DNA of 64,000 nt from an uncultured Clostridia bacterium. GTDB lineage: Bacteria > Bacillota > Clostridia > Oscillospirales > Ruminococcaceae. Every line of letters starts with the position of its first letter. Position 1 is the stretch's first letter. Under the pieces are notes generated by a model that was not told where the DNA came from, did not search any database, and saw only the letters and a program-made list of their open reading frames with translations. Below are positions 32,668 to 61,936 of the stretch, piece after piece. The stretch spans positions 1 through 64,000 of the forward strand of contig CANDVA010000001.1 in assembly GCA_947389015.1 (NCBI GenBank). The letters run 5' to 3'. A program made the position numbers and the translations under genes.

Positions 32668-32949
32668 ATGTCGAAATTCGGAAAAACGGCAGTGCTCGCG
32701 GCGGCGTTTTGTCTCGCCTCGCAAACGATAACGCTTGCGAACGCGTCTGCGGACGCGGTATATTTCATACTGTGCGAGTACAACGGAAAAATAGCGCTTA
32801 TGGAGGAAGGGGTCGACGAGCCCATAGCGGTGTACAAAACGCCGATAAGCTCCCTCTACCCCGCGGACGCGGAGCTGCTCCGCGAGGGCATACGTCTGAA
32901 GAACCGCGCCGAGCTCTCGCGGCTTATTGAGGATCTTGATTTGGAGTAA
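32668..32949 (+). CDS. Small secreted protein with BofC C-terminal-like domain
   Basis: 93 aa. N-terminal hydrophobic segment ending in ALANASA-like Ala-rich residues suggests a signal peptide (~1-29). The rest, AVYFILCEYNGKIALMEEG and the later LREGIRLKNRAELSRLIEDL, resembles the short BofC-C domain found alone in many clostridial proteins, which in Bacillus is part of the SpoIVB inhibitor in sporulation. Function inferred by family. Its ribosome site is buried in the hairpin before it. Confidence 0.65.
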   Translation: MSKFGKTAVLAAAFCLASQTITLANASADAVYFILCEYNGKIALMEEGVDEPIAVYKTPISSLYPADAELLREGIRLKNRAELSRLIEDLDLE

Positions 32950-33059: not shown

Positions 33060-33103
33060 ATTCCGCAACATATTGTCCTTTTTGGGACAATATGTTGCGG
33101 AAT
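33060..33103. repeat. Perfect 19-bp inverted repeat upstream of the lipid-cluster promoter
   Basis: ATTCCGCAACATATTGTCC (33060-33078), loop TTTTTG, then its exact complement (33085-33103). It ends 6 bases before the -35 box of the plsC-like promoter and has no T tract on either side, so it looks like an operator or DNA structure more than a terminator. The 32950-33059 stretch holds nothing else I recognise. Confidence 0.75.
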
Positions 33104-33109
33104 TGCCCA

Positions 33110-33138
33110 TTGAAAAAAAAGCGTTCGGCGGTTATAAT
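33110..33138 (+). promoter_or_regulatory. Sigma-A promoter of the acyltransferase-ACP-KS cluster
   Basis: TTGAAA (33110-33115), 17-base spacer, TATAAT (33133-33138), 32 bases before the first start codon. Likely drives 33171-38918, as no terminator is visible until 38924. Confidence 0.8.
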
Positions 33139-33170
33139 ATTTAATGTAAGTAATTAAGGGGAGCGGTATT

Positions 33171-33836
33171 GTGAACAATAACGTCAAAAGGCAGACGCTG
33201 TGGGGCAGGCTTTTTCAAGTGCTCATCATTTGGACGGTGTATTTTTTGTTCCGCCCCAAGGTGATATTCATCGATAAAACGCTGAAGAAACGCCTTAAAG
33301 GTATGCCATGCGTGTTCGTCGGCAACCACACGCATCACTTTGACGGGGCATACGGTCCCGCCGTGCTGTGGCGGTATAAACCGTATATTCTCGTCAAGAA
33401 GCAGTGGTACGAGAAAAAGCGGACGGGAAAAATGATATCGTGGTGTCGGAGCATACCGATAAATCTCGACGAAGCAGACGGCTCCTGGTACGCAGCGGCG
33501 GAAGCGGTAGTTGAAAACGGCGGCTCTCTGATGATCTTTCCCGAGGGCGGACTTTCGCGCGACGGGGAAATTCACGAGTTCAAGCCCGGAGCGGCGCTGC
33601 TCTCGGCAAAAAAGGGCGTGCCGATAGTACCCTGCGCAATATACGGTACATATTCGCCAGTGTTTGGTATGCGGCAGAAAATGCTCGTCGGCAAGCCTAT
33701 CGAGAGCATCTGTCCCGAGAATATGCGCCACAGCAAATACGCGCGGCAGCTTATTTCCGAGGCGGAAAAATCGGTTCGGGAGCTGTACGCTCAAATGGTC
33801 GAAAAATACGGCGACTGCGGGCAGTACCACAAGTAA
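33171..33836 (+). CDS. PlsC-like 1-acylglycerol-3-phosphate acyltransferase
   Basis: 221 aa. LPLAT fold with catalytic His53-x4-Asp58 (NHTHHFD), the FPEGGLSRDG substrate motif near residue 125 and VPIVPCAIYGTYSPV further on. N-terminal hydrophobic stretch (~12-28) for membrane association. GTG start after AAGGGGAG. As first gene of an ACP/ketosynthase cluster, it may transfer the cluster's acyl product onto a glycerolipid instead of doing general phospholipid synthesis (inference). Confidence 0.88.
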   Translation: MNNNVKRQTLWGRLFQVLIIWTVYFLFRPKVIFIDKTLKKRLKGMPCVFVGNHTHHFDGAYGPAVLWRYKPYILVKKQWYEKKRTGKMISWCRSIPINLDEADGSWYAAAEAVVENGGSLMIFPEGGLSRDGEIHEFKPGAALLSAKKGVPIVPCAIYGTYSPVFGMRQKMLVGKPIESICPENMRHSKYARQLISEAEKSVRELYAQMVEKYGDCGQYHK

Positions 33837-33886
33837 ATCACGGCATAAAGCCGAAAAATCATAAGTATTCAAAGGAGAAAATTACA

Positions 33887-34135
33887 ATGTCTAACACAGA
33901 AATTTGCGAGAAGATCAAGGGTATGTTGGTGGAGAATCTGAGAATTCCCGCCGACGAGCTGGAATTTGATTCGGAGCTTTTCGGCGACGATATCGGACTG
34001 GATTCCATTGACTCTATCGAAATAATCGCGGGTATCGACAGCCTTTTCGGCGTACAGATGACAGGCGCGGCAAGAGAAAACTTCAAGTCTATCGAAACGC
34101 TTGCTAAGTACGTTGAGGAGCATCAGGGTGAGTAA
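33887..34135 (+). CDS. Acyl carrier protein of the cluster
   Basis: 82 aa four-helix ACP with the phosphopantetheine site in IGLDSIDSIE (Ser40). It is acidic, as usual for ACPs. The Ile after Ser where primary-metabolism ACPs have Leu suggests a specialised carrier. ATG after AAAGGAGAAA. Two bases before the ketosynthase start. Confidence 0.93.
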   Translation: MSNTEICEKIKGMLVENLRIPADELEFDSELFGDDIGLDSIDSIEIIAGIDSLFGVQMTGAARENFKSIETLAKYVEEHQGE

Positions 34136-34136
34136 T

Positions 34137-36362
34137 ATGAACGATAACGGGAGAGTTGTTGTTACGGGTCTGGGATTGGTGTGCGCTCTCGGCGAGGACT
34201 CCGATAAATGCTGGAGCGCGGCGGTGAACGGCGTTACGGGTATCCGCGAGGTGAAGTCCGTGAACACCGACGGCTGCTACGCGAACGTAGGCGCGGAGGT
34301 TCTGACCGCTTCTAAGGATCTGTCGGACGAAGACTACGACCGCTCGTCCCTGCTGTGCATTAAGGCGGCGGGAGAAGCGCTCGTGGATTCGGGTTACAAA
34401 GTCACCGAGGAGAGTTCCGACAGGATAGGCGTTATCGTCGGCAACTGCGTCGGCGGCGCGGCAAGTATCGACAAATATTTCACCGACGAGCTGAAAAACG
34501 GCGGCGGAAACAAAGCCGATATTCTGAAAATGCCCGCGGCGGCTATCGCGAACAACGTCGCCAAGCACTTCGGATTGAACGGTACCACCGCGAATATCGT
34601 TAACGCGTGTGCGGCGGGAACTATCTCGCTCTCTTACGCCGCCGACCTTATTCGCGCGGGCAAGGCGGACGCGTTTGTCGCGGGCGGCTCGGACAGCTTT
34701 TCGTCGCTGGCGTTCGCAGGATTTCACGCCCTGCACGCGCTTGACGAGAACTCCTGCTCGCCGTTCAACCGCTCAAGCGGAATAACTCTCGGCGAGGGCG
34801 CGGGCGTTCTGATAATTGAAAGCTACGAACACGCAAAGGCTCGCGGCGCGAAAATTTACTGCGAGGTTCTAGGCAGCGGAGTTTCCTCCGACGCTCACCA
34901 CATAACCGCTCCCGATCCCGAAGGCAAGGGGCAGATGCTGGCTATCAGCCGCGCGATCACGAATTCGGGACTTACTCCGAACGATATCGACTACATCAAC
35001 GCGCACGGCACGGGCACGGCAAAGAACGACGAGGCGGAGTTTCTTTCACTGCACACTATTTTCGACGGTAACGATCACTTATCGGTAAGCTCCACCAAGT
35101 CTATGACGGGTCACTGTCTGGGTGCCGCGGGCTCTATCGAGGCGGTGCTGACGGTCAAGGCGGTATGCGAAAACGCCGTTCCCCCGACTATCGGCTATAC
35201 CGAGGAGAACCTCGGGGCGCTAAAAGAAAAGGCGGGCGCTATCGATTTCGTACCGAATGTCAAGCACGAAAAGACTATCAATTACGCGGCTTCCAACTCG
35301 TTCGCGTTCGGCGGCAACAACGCTTCTATCATATTCGCGAAGGAGCCGCGCGAGATACCTGATCGCACCAATAAGGACAGGATTTTCATTACGGGTATCG
35401 GAGGACTTATAAGCAAGGGACGCGTTGAGATAAGCTCCGACGACTACAAGGCTCATGGGATCAAAATGGCATTCTACCGCAAGCTCGACCGCTTCTCGCA
35501 GTTACAGCTTTTGAGCGGTATGCAGGCGCTTGCGGACGCGAATATTACCGTTTCCGAGGAGAACGAAAAGGATATCGGAATAGTCGTGGGCACCGCCGAC
35601 GGTCCAATGACCGAAATAGTCGGTTTCCAGAAAAACGTTATCGAGAACGGCACGGCAAGCGGCTCGGCGTTCTCGTTCCCGAATACCGTGTACAATGCGG
35701 CGGGCGGATATTTCAGCATTTTTGCGGGGATAAAGGGATACAACGTCACCAACGCGAACAGCATTCAGGCTGGCTTGCAGAGCCTTTGCTACGCGGCGGA
35801 TGTTATCAGAAACGGCGACGAAAAAATTATGGTCGCTTCGGGTACGGACGAAAACACCGATACTACGGAGTATCTGTACGGAAAACTCGGTCTGCTGAAC
35901 GGCAGTCTCGGCGAGGGCTCGGTTTCGCTAATACTTGAAAACGAGAACAGCGCTAACGAGCGCGGCGCTAAGAAATATGCGGAGCTTGTCGGCTGGGCGA
36001 CCGCTCACAAGTCCGTTGAGTTCGGCACGGTAAAGGGTTCGGAAAGCGCTTTAAAGGCGGCAATCGAAAATGCCTGCAAGTCCGCGGGTATCGCGCTCAA
36101 AGACATTGAAGCGGTGTGCGGATTTGCGAATGGAGTGCCCACCGTTGACGATATCGAAAAGAACACGTATGCGGAGCTTTTCGGCGATATTCCCGTTGTA
36201 CGGGTCAAGGACGAACTTGGAGAAGCGCGCGCGGCGGCAAGCGCGGAACAGGCGGCTTGCGCAGCGAAAATGCTCGGCGAGGGCAAGTACGGATATGTTC
36301 TCGCGGCAGCGTTCGGCGTTGGCGGACAGTATTCGGCTGTCGTTTTGAAGAAAGTTGATTGA
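34137..36362 (+). CDS. Fused ketosynthase and catalytically dead ketosynthase (KS-CLF-like)
   Basis: 741 aa. Residues ~1-415 are a FabF-type condensing enzyme with Cys158 (NACAAGTI), His290 (NAHGTGTA) and His326 (KSMTGHCLGAAGS). Residues ~425-741 are a second, shortened ketosynthase fold (RIFITGIGGL start; YAADVIRNG aligning with YAADLIRAG) in which the Cys position is Ile543 and both catalytic His are missing. This is the KS/chain-length-factor pairing of type II polyketide and aryl-polyene systems, here on one chain. The ATG at 34137 follows AGGGTGAG. Condenses malonyl-ACP units; product unknown. Confidence 0.85.
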   Translation: MNDNGRVVVTGLGLVCALGEDSDKCWSAAVNGVTGIREVKSVNTDGCYANVGAEVLTASKDLSDEDYDRSSLLCIKAAGEALVDSGYKVTEESSDRIGVIVGNCVGGAASIDKYFTDELKNGGGNKADILKMPAAAIANNVAKHFGLNGTTANIVNACAAGTISLSYAADLIRAGKADAFVAGGSDSFSSLAFAGFHALHALDENSCSPFNRSSGITLGEGAGVLIIESYEHAKARGAKIYCEVLGSGVSSDAHHITAPDPEGKGQMLAISRAITNSGLTPNDIDYINAHGTGTAKNDEAEFLSLHTIFDGNDHLSVSSTKSMTGHCLGAAGSIEAVLTVKAVCENAVPPTIGYTEENLGALKEKAGAIDFVPNVKHEKTINYAASNSFAFGGNNASIIFAKEPREIPDRTNKDRIFITGIGGLISKGRVEISSDDYKAHGIKMAFYRKLDRFSQLQLLSGMQALADANITVSEENEKDIGIVVGTADGPMTEIVGFQKNVIENGTASGSAFSFPNTVYNAAGGYFSIFAGIKGYNVTNANSIQAGLQSLCYAADVIRNGDEKIMVASGTDENTDTTEYLYGKLGLLNGSLGEGSVSLILENENSANERGAKKYAELVGWATAHKSVEFGTVKGSESALKAAIENACKSAGIALKDIEAVCGFANGVPTVDDIEKNTYAELFGDIPVVRVKDELGEARAAASAEQAACAAKMLGEGKYGYVLAAAFGVGGQYSAVVLKKVD

Positions 36363-36371
36363 GGTGGCGTT

Positions 36372-37100
36372 ATGGTTGCATTGGTTACGGGAGCTTCCCG
36401 CGGAATAGGCAGAGCTTGCGCGATAAGGCTCGCGGAAAGCGGTTACGACGTCGCGGTGAATTACAATTCCAACGAAGCGAAAGCCGCCGAGGTCGTTGCC
36501 GAGATAGAAAAGCTCGGAAGAAAAGCCGCCGCCTACAAAGCCGATACGGCGGACTTAAAGGCGGTTCAGGGAATGTTCCGCGAGGTGCAGAAGGAATTCG
36601 GGCAGCTTGACGTATTGGTCAACAACGCGGGCGTAGTCGACGACGCGTATCTGCTGATGATAAACGAGGACTCGCTGTCGCGCAGTCTGGACATAAACAT
36701 CAAGGGTTACTTCCACTGTGCGCAGCAGGCGGCTCTTAAAATGATGTCCAAAAAGCACGGCAAGATAATCAACATCTCGTCGGTAAGCTCCGTTCTCGCG
36801 GTAGAGGGTCAAGGAGTTTACTCCGCGACAAAGGGCGCGGTGAATTCCATGACCGCGACCTTGGCGAAGGAGCTTGCTCCGCGCGGCATTACCGTAAACG
36901 CGGTAGCGCCGGGCTTTATCGAAACGGAAATGATGGACGCTATCCCAGAGGACAAAAAGGCCGAATACATAAAGGCCATACCCATGGGGAAATTCGGCAG
37001 CGCGGCGGACGTGGCGAATACCGTTGCGGCGCTCTGCTCTGAGGCGTTCGACTATGTGACGGGCCAGGTGATCGTACTTGACGGAGGGCTCAGCTTATGA
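36372..37100 (+). CDS. 3-oxoacyl-ACP reductase (FabG-type SDR)
   Basis: 242 aa short-chain dehydrogenase. NADPH motif TGASRGIG at the N-terminus, NNAG (~85-88), catalytic Ser of NISSVSS and Tyr-x-x-x-Lys in YSATKGAVN, and the usual C-terminal ITVNAVAPGFIETEM and TGQVIVLDGG. Reduces the beta-keto group set up by the ketosynthase. ATG after GAGGTGGC; overlaps the dehydratase gene by 4 bases. Confidence 0.92.
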   Translation: MVALVTGASRGIGRACAIRLAESGYDVAVNYNSNEAKAAEVVAEIEKLGRKAAAYKADTADLKAVQGMFREVQKEFGQLDVLVNNAGVVDDAYLLMINEDSLSRSLDINIKGYFHCAQQAALKMMSKKHGKIINISSVSSVLAVEGQGVYSATKGAVNSMTATLAKELAPRGITVNAVAPGFIETEMMDAIPEDKKAEYIKAIPMGKFGSAADVANTVAALCSEAFDYVTGQVIVLDGGLSL

Positions 37101-37549
37101 TGAATCTGCTTGAGATCAACAAGCGTATAAAGCAGCGCCCGCCTTTTCAGATGATAGAGCGCGTGCTTGAATTAGAGCCGAATATTTCCGCCAAAGGCAT
37201 AAAGAACGTTTCGGTGAACGAGCCGTATTTTATCGGGCACTTTCCCGAAGCGCCGATAATGCCGGGCGTACTGCTTATCGAGAGCGCGGCTCAGCTTTGC
37301 AGTCTGGTGATAGCTCCAGACGGCGCTGCCGATGACGCGGGAAAGCTGTATGTTCTGCTAAAGGTCAAGGATTTCAAGTTTTTAAAGCCGGTTATCCCCG
37401 GCGATACTCTGACGATCGACGTTAAATGCACGATGTCGGGCGCGGGCGCGTATGAATTTTCGGCGGTGATCTCGGTAAACGGCACGGTCAAGGCAAAGGG
37501 CAGTATGCTGTTTACATCTATGGACAAAAGCACGGTGTATGATGGATAA
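37097..37549 (+). CDS. 3-hydroxyacyl-ACP dehydratase (FabZ-like hotdog protein)
   Basis: 150 aa hotdog fold with the complete FabZ signature GHFPEAPIMPGVLLIESAAQ: His48 and Glu62 are the catalytic residues. Removes water to give the trans-2-enoyl-ACP. No enoyl reductase follows in the cluster, so double bonds would be kept unless a housekeeping enzyme acts. Overlaps the fabG-like gene (ATGATGA) and the next gene. Confidence 0.92.
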   Translation: MMNLLEINKRIKQRPPFQMIERVLELEPNISAKGIKNVSVNEPYFIGHFPEAPIMPGVLLIESAAQLCSLVIAPDGAADDAGKLYVLLKVKDFKFLKPVIPGDTLTIDVKCTMSGAGAYEFSAVISVNGTVKAKGSMLFTSMDKSTVYDG

Positions 37550-38198
37550 TATAATTGATTTTTCAGCTTCGATAGTAACGGGTGGGAATGTTCTGCGCTC
37601 GCGTATCGAAAGCGCGGCAGCATACTACGACGAGGGCTGCCGCGGGTATTTCGAGGAAATCATGTCAAAGCGCGGAAACGCGTTCTGCGATTCGGCATGC
37701 GGATTTCTGCTGCTGGACAGCCTGCTGCAAAAGCACAGAATAAACCGCTCGGAGCTTGTCATAACGCTTGACGAGCGCGGCAGACCGCACACGAACCGTT
37801 CCGATCTTGATTTCAGCATATCCCACAGCGAAGGATGCGCGGTGTGCGTTATCGAAATAGGCGAAGGAGCGAATATCGGCGTTGACGTTCAGCGCGAGCG
37901 TCCGTATTCTGCTGCGAAAATGGACGAGCTTGCAAAGGCGTTTATGACCGAAACGGAGCTAACAGAGTTCCGCAGCTCGAAGCACGATCCCGCCGAATTC
38001 TTCACCGCGTGGACAAGACGCGAATCCTATGTCAAGCGCATAGGCTCTGATATTTTTGACAACCTGAAAAGCGCCGACCTCAGCGCCGAAAGCTTTCGCG
38101 AGGGCGTTATCACCGCCTGCGGACGGCGTTATTATTACAGCATTAACGCGCGGGCGGAGGTTTTGTTCCCCGTGGAACAAAGCGAAGAACGGGGGTAG
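37539..38198 (+). CDS. Sfp-type 4'-phosphopantetheinyl transferase
   Basis: 219 aa. Sfp-superfamily landmarks: FSISHSEGCAVC, NIGVDVQRERP (metal-binding Asp and partner), and FTAWTRRESYVK in place of WTxKEAxxK. Longer than AcpS, so of the secondary-metabolism type; it most likely arms the cluster's own ACP. Overlaps the dehydratase gene by 11 bases. Start at 37539 or the next ATG 37542. Confidence 0.88.
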   Translation: MMDNIIDFSASIVTGGNVLRSRIESAAAYYDEGCRGYFEEIMSKRGNAFCDSACGFLLLDSLLQKHRINRSELVITLDERGRPHTNRSDLDFSISHSEGCAVCVIEIGEGANIGVDVQRERPYSAAKMDELAKAFMTETELTEFRSSKHDPAEFFTAWTRRESYVKRIGSDIFDNLKSADLSAESFREGVITACGRRYYYSINARAEVLFPVEQSEERG

Positions 38199-38207
38199 AT
38201 ACAATAA

Positions 38208-38918
38208 ATGAAAGTTCTGATATTAAATGGCAGCCCAAAAGCGGAGCGCTCAAATACGCTTAATATTACAAAAGCATTTTTGAGCGGATTTCCCGAGGGT
38301 ACGGATATCGAATATGTAAACCTGTACAAGCTGAACATAAAGCCATGCGTAGGCTGCTTTTCCTGTTGGAGCAAAACACAGGGAAAGTGCGTTATACAAG
38401 ACGATATGCAGGAGCTTTACGGTAAGATAGAGGCGGCGGATATCATCATTGAGAGCTTTCCGCTGTACTTTTTCGGTATGCCGAGTCAGCTCAAGGCAAT
38501 GACGGACAGATGTCTGCCGTTTATGCTGCCGTATATGGGAAATCTCGTCGAGGACAAAAACGCGTCGTTCCATGAGCTGCGCGACGAAAGCATGCATGAA
38601 AAGCGCCTTGTAGTTATCACGACCTGCGGCTATGTCGACACAAAGCCCATGTACCCCGCGCTGCTCAAGGAGTATGATCTGATATGCGGCGACGGTCACT
38701 ACACGGCGATAATGTGTCCCGAGGGCGAGCTGTTCATCGCGGAAAAGGCGAAGCGTCAGCGCGAGGGATATCTTGCCGATATAAAAAAAGCGGGCGCGGA
38801 GTTCGCAGAAAACCGCAGGCTCTCCCCCGAGACTATGGAGCGCATTTCAAAGCCGATACTCTCACCGCAGGGCTTTGAAGCGATCACCTTGGCGCATTGG
38901 GAAATGAAGTCAAAATAA
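38208..38918 (+). CDS. NAD(P)H-dependent FMN reductase-like flavoprotein
   Basis: 236 aa. Flavodoxin-like fold of the NADPH-dependent FMN reductase family: N-terminal LILNGSPKAERSNT phosphate loop, then PCVGCFSCW and GKCVI Cys residues as in iron-sulfur or azoreductase-type members, and FPLYFFGMPSQLKAMTDR. Nine bases after the transferase gene and before the shared terminator, so co-transcribed. It could reduce a quinone, a polyene or an unrelated substrate; not decidable from sequence. Confidence 0.8.
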   Translation: MKVLILNGSPKAERSNTLNITKAFLSGFPEGTDIEYVNLYKLNIKPCVGCFSCWSKTQGKCVIQDDMQELYGKIEAADIIIESFPLYFFGMPSQLKAMTDRCLPFMLPYMGNLVEDKNASFHELRDESMHEKRLVVITTCGYVDTKPMYPALLKEYDLICGDGHYTAIMCPEGELFIAEKAKRQREGYLADIKKAGAEFAENRRLSPETMERISKPILSPQGFEAITLAHWEMKSK

Positions 38919-38956: not shown

Positions 38957-39559
38957 TTATTTCGCATCGACGGAATACATAGGCTGAACCTGCCTGCCGT
39001 CCAGCGCCTCGAAAATGGTCTGCGGTATCTTCTTGAAATCCGCGATCATCGAAAAGGGCTTGCCGCGGCAGTCGTCCTGGAACATCGGCACAAAGTAGAA
39101 GTTCTTGTAGTTGCGGAGTGTTCCTATGTTCTTTGCGGAGGCGGACAGCGCGTCGTTGGTCGACACCGCGATCACCACGGGCCGCTGATTGCGCAGGTGG
39201 CTTTTTACCGCCATGCATACGGGAGTATCGGTTATCCCGAGCGCCAGCTTTGCGAGGGTGTTGCCGGTACATGGCGCGATAACCAGAACGTCAAACATCT
39301 TTTTGGGTCCTATGGGTTCGGCGGCGGTGATGTCGTGGAGAACCGTCCTGCCCGTGATCTCGTACAGCCGCGCGGCGTGCTGCTGAGCAGTGCCGAAGCG
39401 GGTATCGAGCGTATATGCGTTGTGGGACATTATCGGGGTGACCTCGCAGCCGAGAGAAACAAGTTCCTCCAGCTCCTCGAAAACCTTGGCGAACGTACAG
39501 AACGAACCGCAGACCGCAAATCCCACACGCAGTCCCGAAAGCTTCTCTATATCGCTCAT
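38957..39559 (-). CDS. dpaB: Dipicolinate synthase subunit B (SpoVFB)
   Basis: 200 aa flavoprotein of the HFCD family: VGFAVCGSFCTF at the N-terminus, PIMSHNAY, and VLVIAPCTGNTLAKLALGI. With DpaA it makes dipicolinic acid, the spore-core chelator, in the mother cell. Placement directly after dpaA is the standard operon order. ATG after GGATAGATC. Supports that this organism makes spores. Confidence 0.95.
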   Translation of the reverse strand: MSDIEKLSGLRVGFAVCGSFCTFAKVFEELEELVSLGCEVTPIMSHNAYTLDTRFGTAQQHAARLYEITGRTVLHDITAAEPIGPKKMFDVLVIAPCTGNTLAKLALGITDTPVCMAVKSHLRNQRPVVIAVSTNDALSASAKNIGTLRNYKNFYFVPMFQDDCRGKPFSMIADFKKIPQTIFEALDGRQVQPMYSVDAK

Positions 39560-39643
39560 GATCTATCCTTTCACTGTTGTGTACCTATAAGTTTGGGCGC
39601 GCAAACGCGCGGTATGTCTTTGATTTGGAGCGATCATACATGA

Positions 39644-40450
39644 TTATTTTTCGGTAAGCTTCGACGCTATCGTCTCGGCGATAGCGTTCCCCGCCGCTTT
39701 GGGCGAGTGTTTTCCGGGCAACCCGGGCGCGTAAATATATTGTATATCATAGCTTTCGGCAAGCGGCTTTGAAGGCTGTTCGGGGAGCGTGGCAAGCTCA
39801 ATAAACACACTGCCGCACTTCATTGCCGAAAAGTGACTGTCCGTAAAGAGCGCGTAAGGAACTGTATTCGCGGTGAAGTCAACGTCTCCGAGAACGCCGC
39901 CGATATCCGAGGTATTGACCGACGAAAAGCCGTCAAGCTCCGCCTCCGTGCGCTGTTCGGGGCGGCGTGCCGCTACCGTGACGGACGAGCCGTTTGCCGA
40001 CAGTCTGTACGCCAGCATTCTGCCTATCCTGCCGTAGCCCGTAATCAGCGAACGCGATCCGAGCAGTGCGCCGTCAGTGCTTTGCGATAGCAACGCGCAG
40101 GCGGCTTCGGCGGTTAGCGCGGCGTTTTTCAGGGTAAGCGCCTCCTCGGCAAAATAGTTGACGAGCGTATAGCCGTTTTCGGCGCATATCTCAGTCAGAG
40201 CTGGGCACTCCCCGCCCGCGAATATTATGGTATTTTTATCGGCAAATTGCGTAATAATGCCGAATTCAAGCGAATTATCAGAAAGCGGCGCAAGAATTTC
40301 CCTGCCGTTCCTCGTAAGCGGCAGCGGCAGGACTACCGCGCCGAACCTGCCCCGCGTTTTTTCGCAAAGCCGTTCGACGTCATATTCCGCGGATAATCTT
40401 TCCGCCGTATAATTCATTCGCTTGTCGCCGCCGATAAACAATATCTTCAT
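39644..40450 (-). CDS. dpaA: Dipicolinate synthase subunit A (SpoVFA)
   Basis: 268 aa from the ATG at 40450, behind GGGAGGGGAGCTT; a further upstream in-frame start is poorly placed. N-terminal KILFIGGDKRMNYTAERL and a central Rossmann motif LITGYGRIGRMLAYRL match DpaA, a dehydrogenase-like protein that reduces or processes dihydrodipicolinate-derived product. Followed 84 bases on by dpaB. Confidence 0.95.
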   Translation of the reverse strand: MKILFIGGDKRMNYTAERLSAEYDVERLCEKTRGRFGAVVLPLPLTRNGREILAPLSDNSLEFGIITQFADKNTIIFAGGECPALTEICAENGYTLVNYFAEEALTLKNAALTAEAACALLSQSTDGALLGSRSLITGYGRIGRMLAYRLSANGSSVTVAARRPEQRTEAELDGFSSVNTSDIGGVLGDVDFTANTVPYALFTDSHFSAMKCGSVFIELATLPEQPSKPLAESYDIQYIYAPGLPGKHSPKAAGNAIAETIASKLTEK

Positions 40451-40484
40451 AAGCTCCCCTCCCGAATATGCCGTGTTATGACAC

Positions 40485-40511
40485 ATTGTATGCGGCTTGA
40501 CGGGTTTTCGT
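40485..40511 (-). promoter_or_regulatory. Candidate sigma-K promoter of dpaAB
   Basis: On the minus strand AC (40511-40510), 17-base gap, CATACAAT (40492-40485), 34 bases before the dpaA start. It fits the sigma-K pattern AC-N16/17-CATAnnnT. The dpa (spoVF) operon is sigma-K-dependent in B. subtilis. Confidence 0.55.
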
Positions 40512-57510: not shown

Positions 57511-58065
57511 ATGAGAAAACTCGGGAACAAGCTTTTCGGGCTGTGTCTAAGGGCTGCGAGCTGCCCGATAATACGCCGTCCCGACGGCGAACCCGCCGAC
57601 AGCAAGCCGAAAATATACGTTTGCGGAGAAGTTCCGCCGTGTGAAAAAATCTCGCTGATAAGAGCGCTGAAGTGCTCGGTGATCTTTTCACGAGACGAAT
57701 ATCCCGACAGCACCGTAATGTGCGCTGTCGGCTCGCGCAGGATCATTGCCGCGGACGGCGGTTTCAATACCGAGTGGATACACGAGGCGTTAAGACGGCT
57801 CAAGCAAGGCGAAAGCGTGATGGTATTTGCGGAGAGCGAGGGGTATGGAGGCGCGGCGCTGATGTCTCTGCTGTCGGGCGCGGAGATAGTTCCGATAGCC
57901 GCTCTGTACAGTCGCTCGAAATACAAGCCGTTCCGACGGCATAATATTATGGTAGGCGCGCCGATACAGCCGAACGGAAATTCCGTGCTGTCGGCGGAAT
58001 GGGTCAACTCCGAGATACGGCGCATAGATACGGCGGTCTCGGCGATAAAGGGGGTACGGTCATGA
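57511..58065 (+). CDS. Degenerate PlsC-like acyltransferase-fold protein
   Basis: 184 aa. Overall LPLAT pattern is visible: KIYVCGEVPP at the first motif, EWIHEALRRLKQGESVMVFAESEGYGG where FPEG stands in active enzymes, and IVPIAALYSRSKYKPF. The catalytic His-x4-Asp is absent. Predicted non-catalytic or greatly changed. ATG after AAGGAGGGAC. Overlaps the ACP-like gene by 4 bases. A TATAAT at 57465-57470 may serve as -10, but no good -35 was seen. Confidence 0.6.
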   Translation: MRKLGNKLFGLCLRAASCPIIRRPDGEPADSKPKIYVCGEVPPCEKISLIRALKCSVIFSRDEYPDSTVMCAVGSRRIIAADGGFNTEWIHEALRRLKQGESVMVFAESEGYGGAALMSLLSGAEIVPIAALYSRSKYKPFRRHNIMVGAPIQPNGNSVLSAEWVNSEIRRIDTAVSAIKGVRS

Positions 58066-58328
58066 GTATTCCCGAGGAGCTTAAAGCTATATTGACAACG
58101 ATCTCGCCCGAGACAGCGAATATGCCTCTTACCGAGGACACCGTGCTGACGGACGATCTCGGGCTTGACAATATGAGCCTGCTGCTTTTCGCAGTAAGCG
58201 TTGAGGATAATTTTGACATACGCTTTGTGGGTTCTCCCGAAATACATACCCTGGGAGACATTATAAATTACATCAAAAATTACAGCAAAGGTTTGGTGAT
58301 CGAACATGAAAACGGGACTTATACTTGA
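58062..58328 (+). CDS. ACP-like protein lacking the phosphopantetheine serine
   Basis: 88 aa four-helix ACP pattern (EELKAILTTI, VEDNFDIRF, TLGDIINYIKNY). At the prosthetic-group site the motif LGLDS reads LGLDNM, with Asn37 in place of Ser; codon AAT is one base from AGT. It should not carry phosphopantetheine. It overlaps the upstream gene by 4 bases and the patatin gene by 23. A scaffold or regulatory role is inferred. Confidence 0.75.
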   Translation: MSIPEELKAILTTISPETANMPLTEDTVLTDDLGLDNMSLLLFAVSVEDNFDIRFVGSPEIHTLGDIINYIKNYSKGLVIEHENGTYT

Positions 58329-59172
58329 AGGCGGAGCGGTTCGCGGCATTTTCACCGCAGGCGTGCTTGACCGCCTTATGGAAAACGGACTTTACTTCCC
58401 CTACGTTATCGGCGTATCGGCGGGCGGCGGCAACGCGATGAGCTACGTTTCCCGTCAAAAGGGAAGGACCTGCCGAATGATAAACGTACCGCGCAGCGAA
58501 TCGTATTACGGACTTAAACAGTTCCTAGGCTCGAAAAAGCTGATAAATCTCGACAAAATGGCGTTTGAGTATCCGTATAAGCAATTCCCGTTTGATTTCG
58601 ATACATACTTTCACAGCGGTATTGAGACCGAATACGTCTGCACCTGCATGGAGACGGGCGAAGCGGAATATTTTTCCGAAGAGAACGACTGCGAACGTCT
58701 GCTGACTATCTGCAAGGCTACCTGCTCCGTGCCTATGTTGTGCGAGCCGGTGGAAATGGAAGGGCGGCATTATCTGGACGGCTCTATCGCGGACAGCATA
58801 CCGATAGAACGCGCCCTGGATATGGGGTGCGACAAGCTGGTGATAATCCTCACCAAGCCCGACAGCACGGTCGCGCCGACGGATTACGCTAAATTCCGCA
58901 AGGTGATTCACGCGATGTACAAGGACTATCCCGCGTTTGAGGATGCCTGCCTGTCGCGCGTGGAGCGTTACTGGAAAACCGTCGAGCTTATGGAGGAGCT
59001 TGAGGAGCAGGGCAGGATATTCATTTTCCGCCCGACACTGCCCGCCATCTCGAAATTTGAGAAAGACGGCGGCAAGATAATGGAATCTTACCGCGACGGT
59101 TATACTCAAGCCGACGATAAGATCGCCGAGCTTATGCAATGGATGCAGTCGGTCGAGAGCAAGGTAAGCTGA
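58306..59172 (+). CDS. Patatin-like phospholipase
   Basis: 288 aa. Oxyanion-hole GGAVRG (residues 9-14), nucleophile Ser38 in GVSAGG, and catalytic Asp158 in LDGSIADSIP, a full Ser-Asp dyad of the RssA/YlbK type. No signal peptide, so a cytosolic lipid acyl hydrolase. Its overlap with the ACP-like gene ties it to the same transcript. Confidence 0.9.
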   Translation: MKTGLILEGGAVRGIFTAGVLDRLMENGLYFPYVIGVSAGGGNAMSYVSRQKGRTCRMINVPRSESYYGLKQFLGSKKLINLDKMAFEYPYKQFPFDFDTYFHSGIETEYVCTCMETGEAEYFSEENDCERLLTICKATCSVPMLCEPVEMEGRHYLDGSIADSIPIERALDMGCDKLVIILTKPDSTVAPTDYAKFRKVIHAMYKDYPAFEDACLSRVERYWKTVELMEELEEQGRIFIFRPTLPAISKFEKDGGKIMESYRDGYTQADDKIAELMQWMQSVESKVS

Positions 59173-60897: not shown

Positions 60898-60937
60898 TTG
60901 ACAAATTTAAATGTATGCAGTATAATACCTATATAGG
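60898..60937 (+). promoter_or_regulatory. Promoter and palindromic operator of the marR-flavodoxin operon
   Basis: TTGACA (60898-60903), 17-base spacer, TATAAT (60921-60926), then the perfect 10-bp palindrome CCTATATAGG (60928-60937) just inside the transcribed region, a fitting spot for MarR repression. Confidence 0.75.
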
Positions 60938-60965
60938 CAATATATTACCCAATGGAGGTTATGCG

Positions 60966-61421
60966 ATGTACGATCTTGAAAATATGGATCAGCGGCTTAT
61001 AGCGTATATAAATATTTTCATCTGCGCGAACCGTTTACAGGCGATAATGGACAGCGGTCTGGAGGACATCACCGCCAAGCAGTGGCTGGCGATAATGATG
61101 ATCGACGCGTTCCCCGAGCCGCCGACGCTGAAACAGATATCGGAGATGTCGGGAGTTACGCACCAAAGTATGCGGCAGATAGTCGACAGGCTTATTGACA
61201 AGGGATTTCTCGCAGTAGTTCCCGACAAAAAGGACAAGCGCGCGATACGCCTTATGAAAACCCCCGCCTCCGATAATATCCGCACCAAAAAGGAAGGGCA
61301 GAACAAGGAGTTCGTATTCAGGCTGTTCGAGTGCCTTGACGAAGAGGAGACCGCGGCGTACTGTTCGGCGCTGGCAAAGCTGTGCGAGCGGCTTAACGAG
61401 TTAAAGGAGGAAAACAAATGA
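60966..61421 (+). CDS. MarR-family transcriptional regulator
   Basis: 151 aa from ATG 60966 after ATGGAGGTT. Winged helix: LTAKQWLAIMMI-like region (here ITAKQWLAIMMIDAF), LKQISEMSGVTHQSMRQIVDRLIDKGF, and wing VPDKKDKRAIRLM. Represses or activates by small-molecule or redox signals in the family. Overlaps the flavodoxin gene by 4 bases, so that gene is the probable target. Confidence 0.92.
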   Translation: MYDLENMDQRLIAYINIFICANRLQAIMDSGLEDITAKQWLAIMMIDAFPEPPTLKQISEMSGVTHQSMRQIVDRLIDKGFLAVVPDKKDKRAIRLMKTPASDNIRTKKEGQNKEFVFRLFECLDEEETAAYCSALAKLCERLNELKEENK

Positions 61422-61936
61422 AAACGATAGTTGTATACAAGTCGAAGTACGGCTATACAAAACGTTACGCCGAGTGGATAGCCGAGGAGCTGGGCTGCGA
61501 TATCAAGGAAAACGCCGCGCTCGGCGACATTCTCGGATATGACATGATAATATGCGGCGGCGGTTGCTACGCGGGGACGATAAACGGCTCAAAGCTGATA
61601 ACGAAGAACCTTGCGCGGCTCTCGGAGAAGAAGCTGATACTATTCGCAGTGGGCTCAAGCTCGGGCGCGGACAAGGACATTGTCCCGTTCTGGGAGAAAA
61701 ATCTCACCGCCGAGCAACGGCAAGCTGTCGCGCATTTTTATCTGCGCGGCGGCTTCGATTACGGCAGGCTTGGCAGCGCCGACAAGCTGCTGATGAATAT
61801 GCTGAAATCGCATTTAAAGAAGATCAAAGACCCCGACGAGGAGACCCGCGGACTTCTCGCCGCCTACGATACTCCCGTGGACTTTACCGACAATGAACGG
61901 TTGACTGAGCTGCTGAAATACGTGAAAAATGTATGA
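61418..61936 (+). CDS. Flavodoxin-domain protein
   Basis: 172 aa. FMN phosphate loop VVYKSKYGYTKRYAEWIA near the start, ICGGGCYAGTINGSK loop and FAVGSSSG; the form is that of flavodoxin-5/HemG-like proteins rather than electron-carrier flavodoxins. With its MarR neighbour it may form a small redox-response unit (inference). Closed by a terminator. Confidence 0.85.
   Translation: MKTIVVYKSKYGYTKRYAEWIAEELGCDIKENAALGDILGYDMIICGGGCYAGTINGSKLITKNLARLSEKKLILFAVGSSSGADKDIVPFWEKNLTAEQRQAVAHFYLRGGFDYGRLGSADKLLMNMLKSHLKKIKDPDEETRGLLAAYDTPVDFTDNERLTELLKYVKNV

Follow-up and report, generated by a model that had tools for sequence, protein, structure and literature searches.

The 64,000-nucleotide stretch considered here (the window; positions 1 to 64,000 of contig CANDVA010000001.1, assembly GCA_947389015.1) comes from an uncultured Clostridia bacterium of the family Ruminococcaceae. 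Between positions 33171 and 38918 it carries seven genes, all on the forward strand, encoding a PlsC-type acyltransferase, an acyl carrier protein (ACP), a one-chain protein that joins a ketosynthase (KS) to a chain-length factor (CLF), a FabG-like ketoacyl-ACP reductase, a FabZ-like dehydratase, an Sfp-type phosphopantetheinyl transferase and a putative iron-sulfur flavoprotein (Isf; Table 1). An earlier note, made from the sequence alone, had proposed seven co-directional genes of these families, which is borne out by the open frames together with Pfam and NCBIfam matches. It had also read correctly Ser40 of the ACP, Cys158, His290 and His326 of the KS, His48 and Glu62 of the FabZ-like protein and Ile543 in the second half of the fused protein, and neither an enoyl reductase (ER) nor a malonyl transferase is present among the seven genes, as it had stated. 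Of the span that it gave, 33060 to 38918, the end holds, since 38918 closes the flavoprotein gene, whereas 33060 is the outer end of an inverted repeat and not the start of a gene. What is added here is the four-cysteine motif of the flavoprotein, a conserved promoter and a wider family of related loci.

Table 1. Features of the operon and its upstream region (window coordinates)
Feature	Position	Strand	Details
Inverted repeat, operator-like	33060..33103		perfect 19-base arms; upstream of promoter
Promoter	33110..33138	+	TTGAAA-17-TATAAT with conserved upstream TTGCCCA
PlsC-type acyltransferase	33171..33836	+	GTG start; PF01553 E 1.2e-17; HX4D H53-D58, FPEG 123-126
Acyl carrier protein	33887..34135	+	Ser40 within GLDSID
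One-chain KS-CLF, 741 aa	34137..36362	+	PF00109 and PF02801, two stretches each
FabG-like ketoacyl-ACP reductase	36372..37100	+	family matches
FabZ-like dehydratase	37097..37549	+	His48, Glu62 read from frame
Sfp-type phosphopantetheinyl transferase	37539..38198	+	PF01648
Putative iron-sulfur flavoprotein (Isf-like), flavodoxin fold	38208..38918	+	FMN_red/Flavodoxin_2; C47-C50-C53-C61

The genes are closely packed, with a widest gap of 50 bases (acyltransferase to ACP) and a greatest overlap of 11 bases, and transcription very likely begins at the promoter at 33110-33138, the unit ending beyond 38918. The genes are under purifying selection, with dN/dS values of 0.015-0.166 across 24 comparisons (the seven genes, with the KS and CLF halves taken apart, against three relatives). 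These values, together with the conservation of gene order in relatives, indicate that the arrangement is due to more than chance.

The fused protein comprises a KS half (residues ~1-412) and a CLF-like half (~413-741). Cys158, His290 and His326 are invariant in a 10-row alignment that reaches Priestia and Streptomyces, and Ile543 occupies the cysteine position of the second half; the window protein thus combines a Cys-His-His ketosynthase with a partner lacking the cysteine, the combination by which type II KS-CLF pairs are recognized. In a motif scan of 42 loci, the patterns around the KS cysteine and the first histidine were found in 42/42 and that around the second histidine in 40/42, and the CLF site is devoid of cysteine in all 34 clostridial lipid-type loci read at that position. 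When the CLF half alone was searched against the PDB, the best match was 1b3n, an E. coli-type FabF (E 1.6e-24). It also matched 9s5h_C over residues 13-298 in a single stretch, as well as 1tqy_B, whose deposited name is actinorhodin ketoacyl synthase 2 and which we take to be the actinorhodin chain-length factor. Judged by such matches, this half is a ketosynthase relative that has diverged. The one-chain architecture, which the earlier note had named among the features that make the cluster smaller than known ones, does not distinguish it as novel in view of annotated single-gene versions in Lachnospira eligens, Priestia and Streptomyces: each of the five plasmid records examined, of 1293 matching, carries a one-gene KS-CLF (L. 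eligens, Priestia pBM500 and three from Streptomyces). In two loci of the window type, L013 (1860-4414) and L015 (5042-7134), the KS-CLF occupies two separate frames, a split possibly owing to sequencing or assembly error or to decay.

Could these genes simply be the primary fatty acid synthesis (FAS) operon, or its KS a plain FabF duplicate? Some results lean that way. The FabG and FabZ proteins are FAS-like, the window FabZ being over the cut-off of the FAS FabZ model NF000582, and the whole fused protein, with its halves summed, passes PRK07314, beta-ketoacyl-ACP synthase II (457 versus 387 bits). The KS half alone stays below the latter cut-off (359 versus 387 bits), and the window FabZ is below that of TIGR01750. 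In the genome to which the window belongs (2.9 Mb, 96% complete), the fused protein has one further match, a FabF encoded at 91991-93223 of contig C8, which is 36% identical to the KS half and is surrounded by FabD, FabH, FabG, FabZ, AccC and AccA. This FabF scores 548 bits against the FabF equivalog model TIGR03150, whose cut-off is 493.75, whereas the KS half reaches 368 and the whole fused protein 470 bits. A phylogeny of the KS halves against FabF, a check that the earlier note had named, is in line with these scores: in a maximum-likelihood tree built from 42 rows, 19 fused KS halves lie on one side of a branch (96/90) and 13 FabF sequences, that of the window's genome included, are separate (96/95). 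In an approximately unbiased (AU) test, a clade uniting that FabF with 15 clostridial KS halves, a group picked after the tree had been seen, was rejected (p 5.3e-5). The 42-row tree was built without L097 and L098, in which the motif used to split the halves was not found, and without APE_KS2 and the aryl polyene (APE) CLF; an earlier tree likewise lacked the fused rows L097 and L098 for the same reason, while a quick tree had L097, L098 and APE_KS2 added and the APE CLF left out. All three trees carry long-branch warnings, and in the quick tree the deeper support for a branch common to all fused KS halves is weak (21). The fused KS-CLF is furthermore found in 38 of 42 same-genus genomes (34 at E 0 and four, G003, G023, G024 and G025, as fragments) and was not found in the other four, G009, G018, G019 (73% complete) and G026, which also speaks against a role in primary synthesis. 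A primary fatty acid operon was therefore rejected on the FAS genes of contig C8, the KS scores, the tree and the AU test, and a FabF duplicate is likewise contradicted, both being extremely improbable; the same evidence argues for a dedicated secondary type II system.

The window acyltransferase is one of two PF01553 matches in its genome; the second PF01553 acyltransferase and a PlsX-family gene lie on other contigs and are taken as housekeeping. The window protein is over the PF01553 cut-off (64.4 versus 23 bits), and among its homologues HX4D is found in 28/29 (incomplete in L015) and FPEG in 29/29. It scores well below the cut-off of the PlsC model TIGR00530 (48.3 versus 102.95 bits), which may hint that a polyene is placed on an acceptor other than a glycerolipid (an amine, a sugar or the cell wall), as in granadaene or other pigments; the apparent relatedness of the fused KS to that of cyl-like clusters would fit such a product. 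This outcome is nevertheless quite unlikely, as no glycosyltransferase, GCV_T (CylF-like) protein, ligase or exporter is encoded among the seven genes and the PlsX and patatin partners found in relatives indicate a phospholipid. Indeed, around a core of ACP, KS-CLF, reductase, dehydratase and flavoprotein genes, it is the acyl-transfer gene that varies: loci of the window type carry the PlsC-type acyltransferase, in genera g61, g108 and g69 a patatin phospholipase gene precedes PlsC, and in L. eligens and genus g105 PlsX comes after the flavoprotein gene. Since one core is accompanied by acyltransferases of two types and by a phospholipase, a membrane-lipid destination, as the earlier note had supposed, becomes likelier, although the argument is one of association and the f67 loci do not share it.

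The patatin gene heads the operon at L063 3992-4849, L067 6581-7432 and L068 12170-13027, and a histidine kinase/response regulator pair, read from the sequence at one locus each of g61, g108 and g69, lies on the opposite strand upstream of the patatin-headed operons. The window itself encodes a patatin-like phospholipase at 58306-59172 (+), the sole PF01734 match in the genome, which shares 46% identity with the operon patatin of g61. The adjacent frame at 57511-58065 (+) resembles the PlsC C-terminal region (BLASTP E 3e-5 against the window acyltransferase) and has no Pfam match. The phospholipase was considered as a part of the operon and rejected, because homologues occur in 42/43 genus genomes, including G009 and G018, two of the genomes without a fused KS-CLF match.

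The last gene encodes a flavoprotein whose CX2CX2CX7C motif (Cys 47, 50, 53 and 61) is invariant in alignments of 15 window-type rows and of nine diverse rows, the window being in both. A scan with the pattern C..C..C.{4,10}C recovered 39/39 flavoprotein homologues, the best one or two per locus, from 37 of the 42 loci; no homologue was found in the four Priestia and Streptomyces stretches or in L005, which meets a contig end. Iron-sulfur flavoproteins, which occur mainly in anaerobic prokaryotes, have the compact motif CX2CX2CX5-7C (PMC3164229), and the window motif fits it. A PDB search returned no entry named Isf, the best match being 7d38, 'Cd1', in which three spacings are alike and the last gap is longer. 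By its invariant motif, the protein looks like a putative iron-sulfur flavoprotein. Few partners of Isf-type proteins are known. Elsewhere in the window, a MarR-type regulator gene is followed by one for a flavodoxin-domain protein (60915-61936, +).

With moderate confidence, we favour a dedicated secondary type II line that makes a polyenoic, probably conjugated, acyl chain for a membrane lipid. The Sfp-type enzyme would arm the ACP, and malonyl-ACP would be supplied by the FabD and acetyl-CoA carboxylase of the genome; the lack of a malonyl transferase in the operon may be offset in this way because the genome has FabD, whereas the L. eligens cluster carries its own. The KS half would condense and the CLF half of the same chain would set the length, each cycle being completed by FabG reduction and FabZ dehydration. 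Loading, condensation, reduction and dehydration are predicted from the protein families and their intact residues. With double bonds left in the chain, the result would be a polyenoic, probably conjugated, acyl-ACP, from which the PlsC-type enzyme may move the chain onto a lyso-glycerolipid or similar acceptor, which would keep the product within the membrane. The Isf-like flavoprotein might serve as an anaerobe-type redox partner, either in partial reduction of the chain or in protection from oxygen species. The conjugated polyene is suggested by the missing ER and by apparent kinship with cyl-like and APE-like systems.

Several observations weigh against this reading. An ER acting in trans, supplied by FAS, could undo the polyene inference; no acyltransferase was seen in the f67 loci, in g105 or in L. 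eligens; L063 has no dehydratase match between the reductase and the flavoprotein; and the f67 loci L094-L096, which come from one related genus and hold ACP, KS-CLF, reductase and Isf-like genes, are without a dehydratase of their own and immediately precede a FAS operon that includes FabK (462 versus a cut-off of 453.1 bits in L094). The latter arrangement, the PlsC, PlsX and patatin partners and the similarity of KS, FabG and FabZ to FAS enzymes would also suit a specialised saturated or mono-unsaturated line, in which the KS-CLF gives an unusual length, a housekeeping ER acts in trans and PlsC or PlsX passes the chain to phospholipid. We regard such a line as unlikely, since the operon's own ACP, reductase and dehydratase, with an Sfp-type enzyme in most genus-type loci, argue for an insulated line, and since the KS-CLF of APE clusters and the fused KS of cyl-like clusters accompany polyenes (PMC8253772; PMC6985545). 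No FabK over the cut-off was found in the window's genome, a weak argument given that the control passed in 1/14 genomes and that the search covered this one type of ER. It is tempting to go beyond the favoured polyenoic membrane lipid and to picture an oxygen-free route to a conjugated polyenoyl membrane phospholipid, with the Isf-type protein replacing the ER or shielding the chain from oxygen and the whole transferred between clostridial families, a conjunction that is somewhat unlikely. Should a polyenoic membrane lipid be the product, a group of Clostridia would possess a membrane lipid or pigment not yet described, the product of a KS-CLF pathway that ranks among the smallest; with its few discrete enzymes, such a pathway would be a simple system in which to study control of chain length by a CLF in the same chain, and an Isf-type protein would gain a pathway role.

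The operon has relatives in other bacteria. The analysis took in 26 distinct window-type loci (the window, L001-L016 and nine more, four duplicate contigs having been dropped), of which L011 (Ruminococcus bromii YE282, 65%) may belong to another genus. All 26 have ACP, 25 each have acyltransferase, reductase, dehydratase and flavoprotein, and 22 have the Sfp-type gene; contig ends explain L010 (no acyltransferase) and L005 (no reductase, dehydratase, Sfp-type gene or flavoprotein), and among the 25 loci that reach downstream of KS-CLF the Sfp-type gene is absent there from L002, L011 and L012. The CLF half matched at E below 1e-70 in 14/396 genomes of the family, the window's own included, and 5/126 genera. 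With the L. eligens CLF half as query, matches at E below 1e-60 were found in 4/391 genomes of the class, and two further class genomes, G707 and G666, have a diverged fused KS within a cyl-like cluster. A blastn scan of plasmids matched 25 records, none over 80% of the operon. L. eligens, of the Lachnospiraceae, groups in the 42-row tree with g105 of the window's family (99/96), which suggests transfer of the cluster between families. It is a human-gut species, and from this and from record names such as Lapin, the Clostridia with the operon are probably intestinal.

A sigma-type promoter is found at 24/25 loci, in the extended CC[AG]TTG form at 21/25; L003 has neither. The extended pattern has one match in the window's genome. 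A promoter regulon was considered and rejected, since the sole other match in the genome to TTGYCCATTGAAA lies within a coding frame and the longer pattern matches once. Upstream of the promoter, GCAACA/TGTTGC and TTGTCC half sites, together with the inverted repeat, point to a putative dedicated regulator. The upstream hairpin is strong (z below -4) in 7/21 folded elements, the window's included, with a mean z of -2.7 against shuffles made for this analysis; it was accordingly rejected as an RNA structure and treated as operator DNA. Further upstream, a 93-aa frame at 32668-32949 (+) is without a Pfam match and is conserved in several relatives. Beyond the operon, two genes convergent with it (38957-40486, -) are kept in place in L014; by their resemblance, they are putative dipicolinate synthase subunits.

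Among known systems, the celluxanthenes or flavoaffinins of Clostridium thermocellum are likewise polyenes of anaerobic Clostridia, but they are made by a type I polyketide synthase (PKS; PMC12144888; PMC11839114), and a pigment of this type was rejected for that reason. Pfa-type secondary lipid synthases also have KS and CLF in one chain and a lipid product (PMC3098273), although they consist of multidomain PfaA and PfaC with the PfaD enoyl reductase, in contrast to the discrete enzymes and missing ER of the operon. The APE cluster of E. coli CFT073 shares KS, CLF, ACP, reductase, dehydratase and a lysophospholipid acyltransferase, which is part of that cluster (PMC8253772). It differs by encoding KS and CLF in separate genes and by having two ACPs, an acyl-CoA synthetase, an MMPL transporter and a LolA-family protein; no ligase, ammonia-lyase or exporter for activation of an aryl starter or for export is found among the seven genes.

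The cyl operons, which direct synthesis of the polyene granadaene (PMC6985545), and the cyl-like clusters of Priestia megaterium pBM500 and of G707 and G666 resemble the window operon in their fused KS, ACP, FabG, FabZ and Sfp-type enzyme, and those of G707 and G666 encode two Isf-like flavoprotein homologues each. The KS of the cyl-like clusters is 30-34% identical to that of the window, and the Priestia fused KS falls on the same side of the 96/90 branch, with the weak deeper support mentioned above. Unlike the window operon, cyl and cyl-like clusters have a malonyl transferase and GCV_T (CylF-like), and G707 and G666 (loci L097 and L098) also an ABC exporter and glycosyltransferases; of the cyl set given in Table 1 of PMC6985545, neither the CylF-like GCV_T nor the ABC exporter is among the seven genes.

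A cluster with the same core order lies on the megaplasmid of L. eligens ATCC 27750 (NC_012780.1, EUBELI_RS11645 to RS11605), whose record states no function. Identities are 51% for KS-CLF, 65% for ACP, 68% each for the reductase and the dehydratase and 43% for the flavoprotein. In addition it has a malonyl transferase, AccD, AccA (a frame absent from the record's table), PlsX, TetR and an alpha/beta hydrolase, and it differs in that neither a PlsC nor an Sfp-type match is present within 9 kb. KS-CLFs of Firmicutes and of human gut samples are covered by a catalogue of type II PKS clusters (PMC10132072), and the present family may be among them. Among the papers listed from a library with few subscription journals, no description was found of a one-chain KS-CLF accompanied by an Isf-like protein and by genes for phospholipid acyl transfer. 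The fusion itself is thus not what is new; as far as those papers go, it is its combination with such partners.

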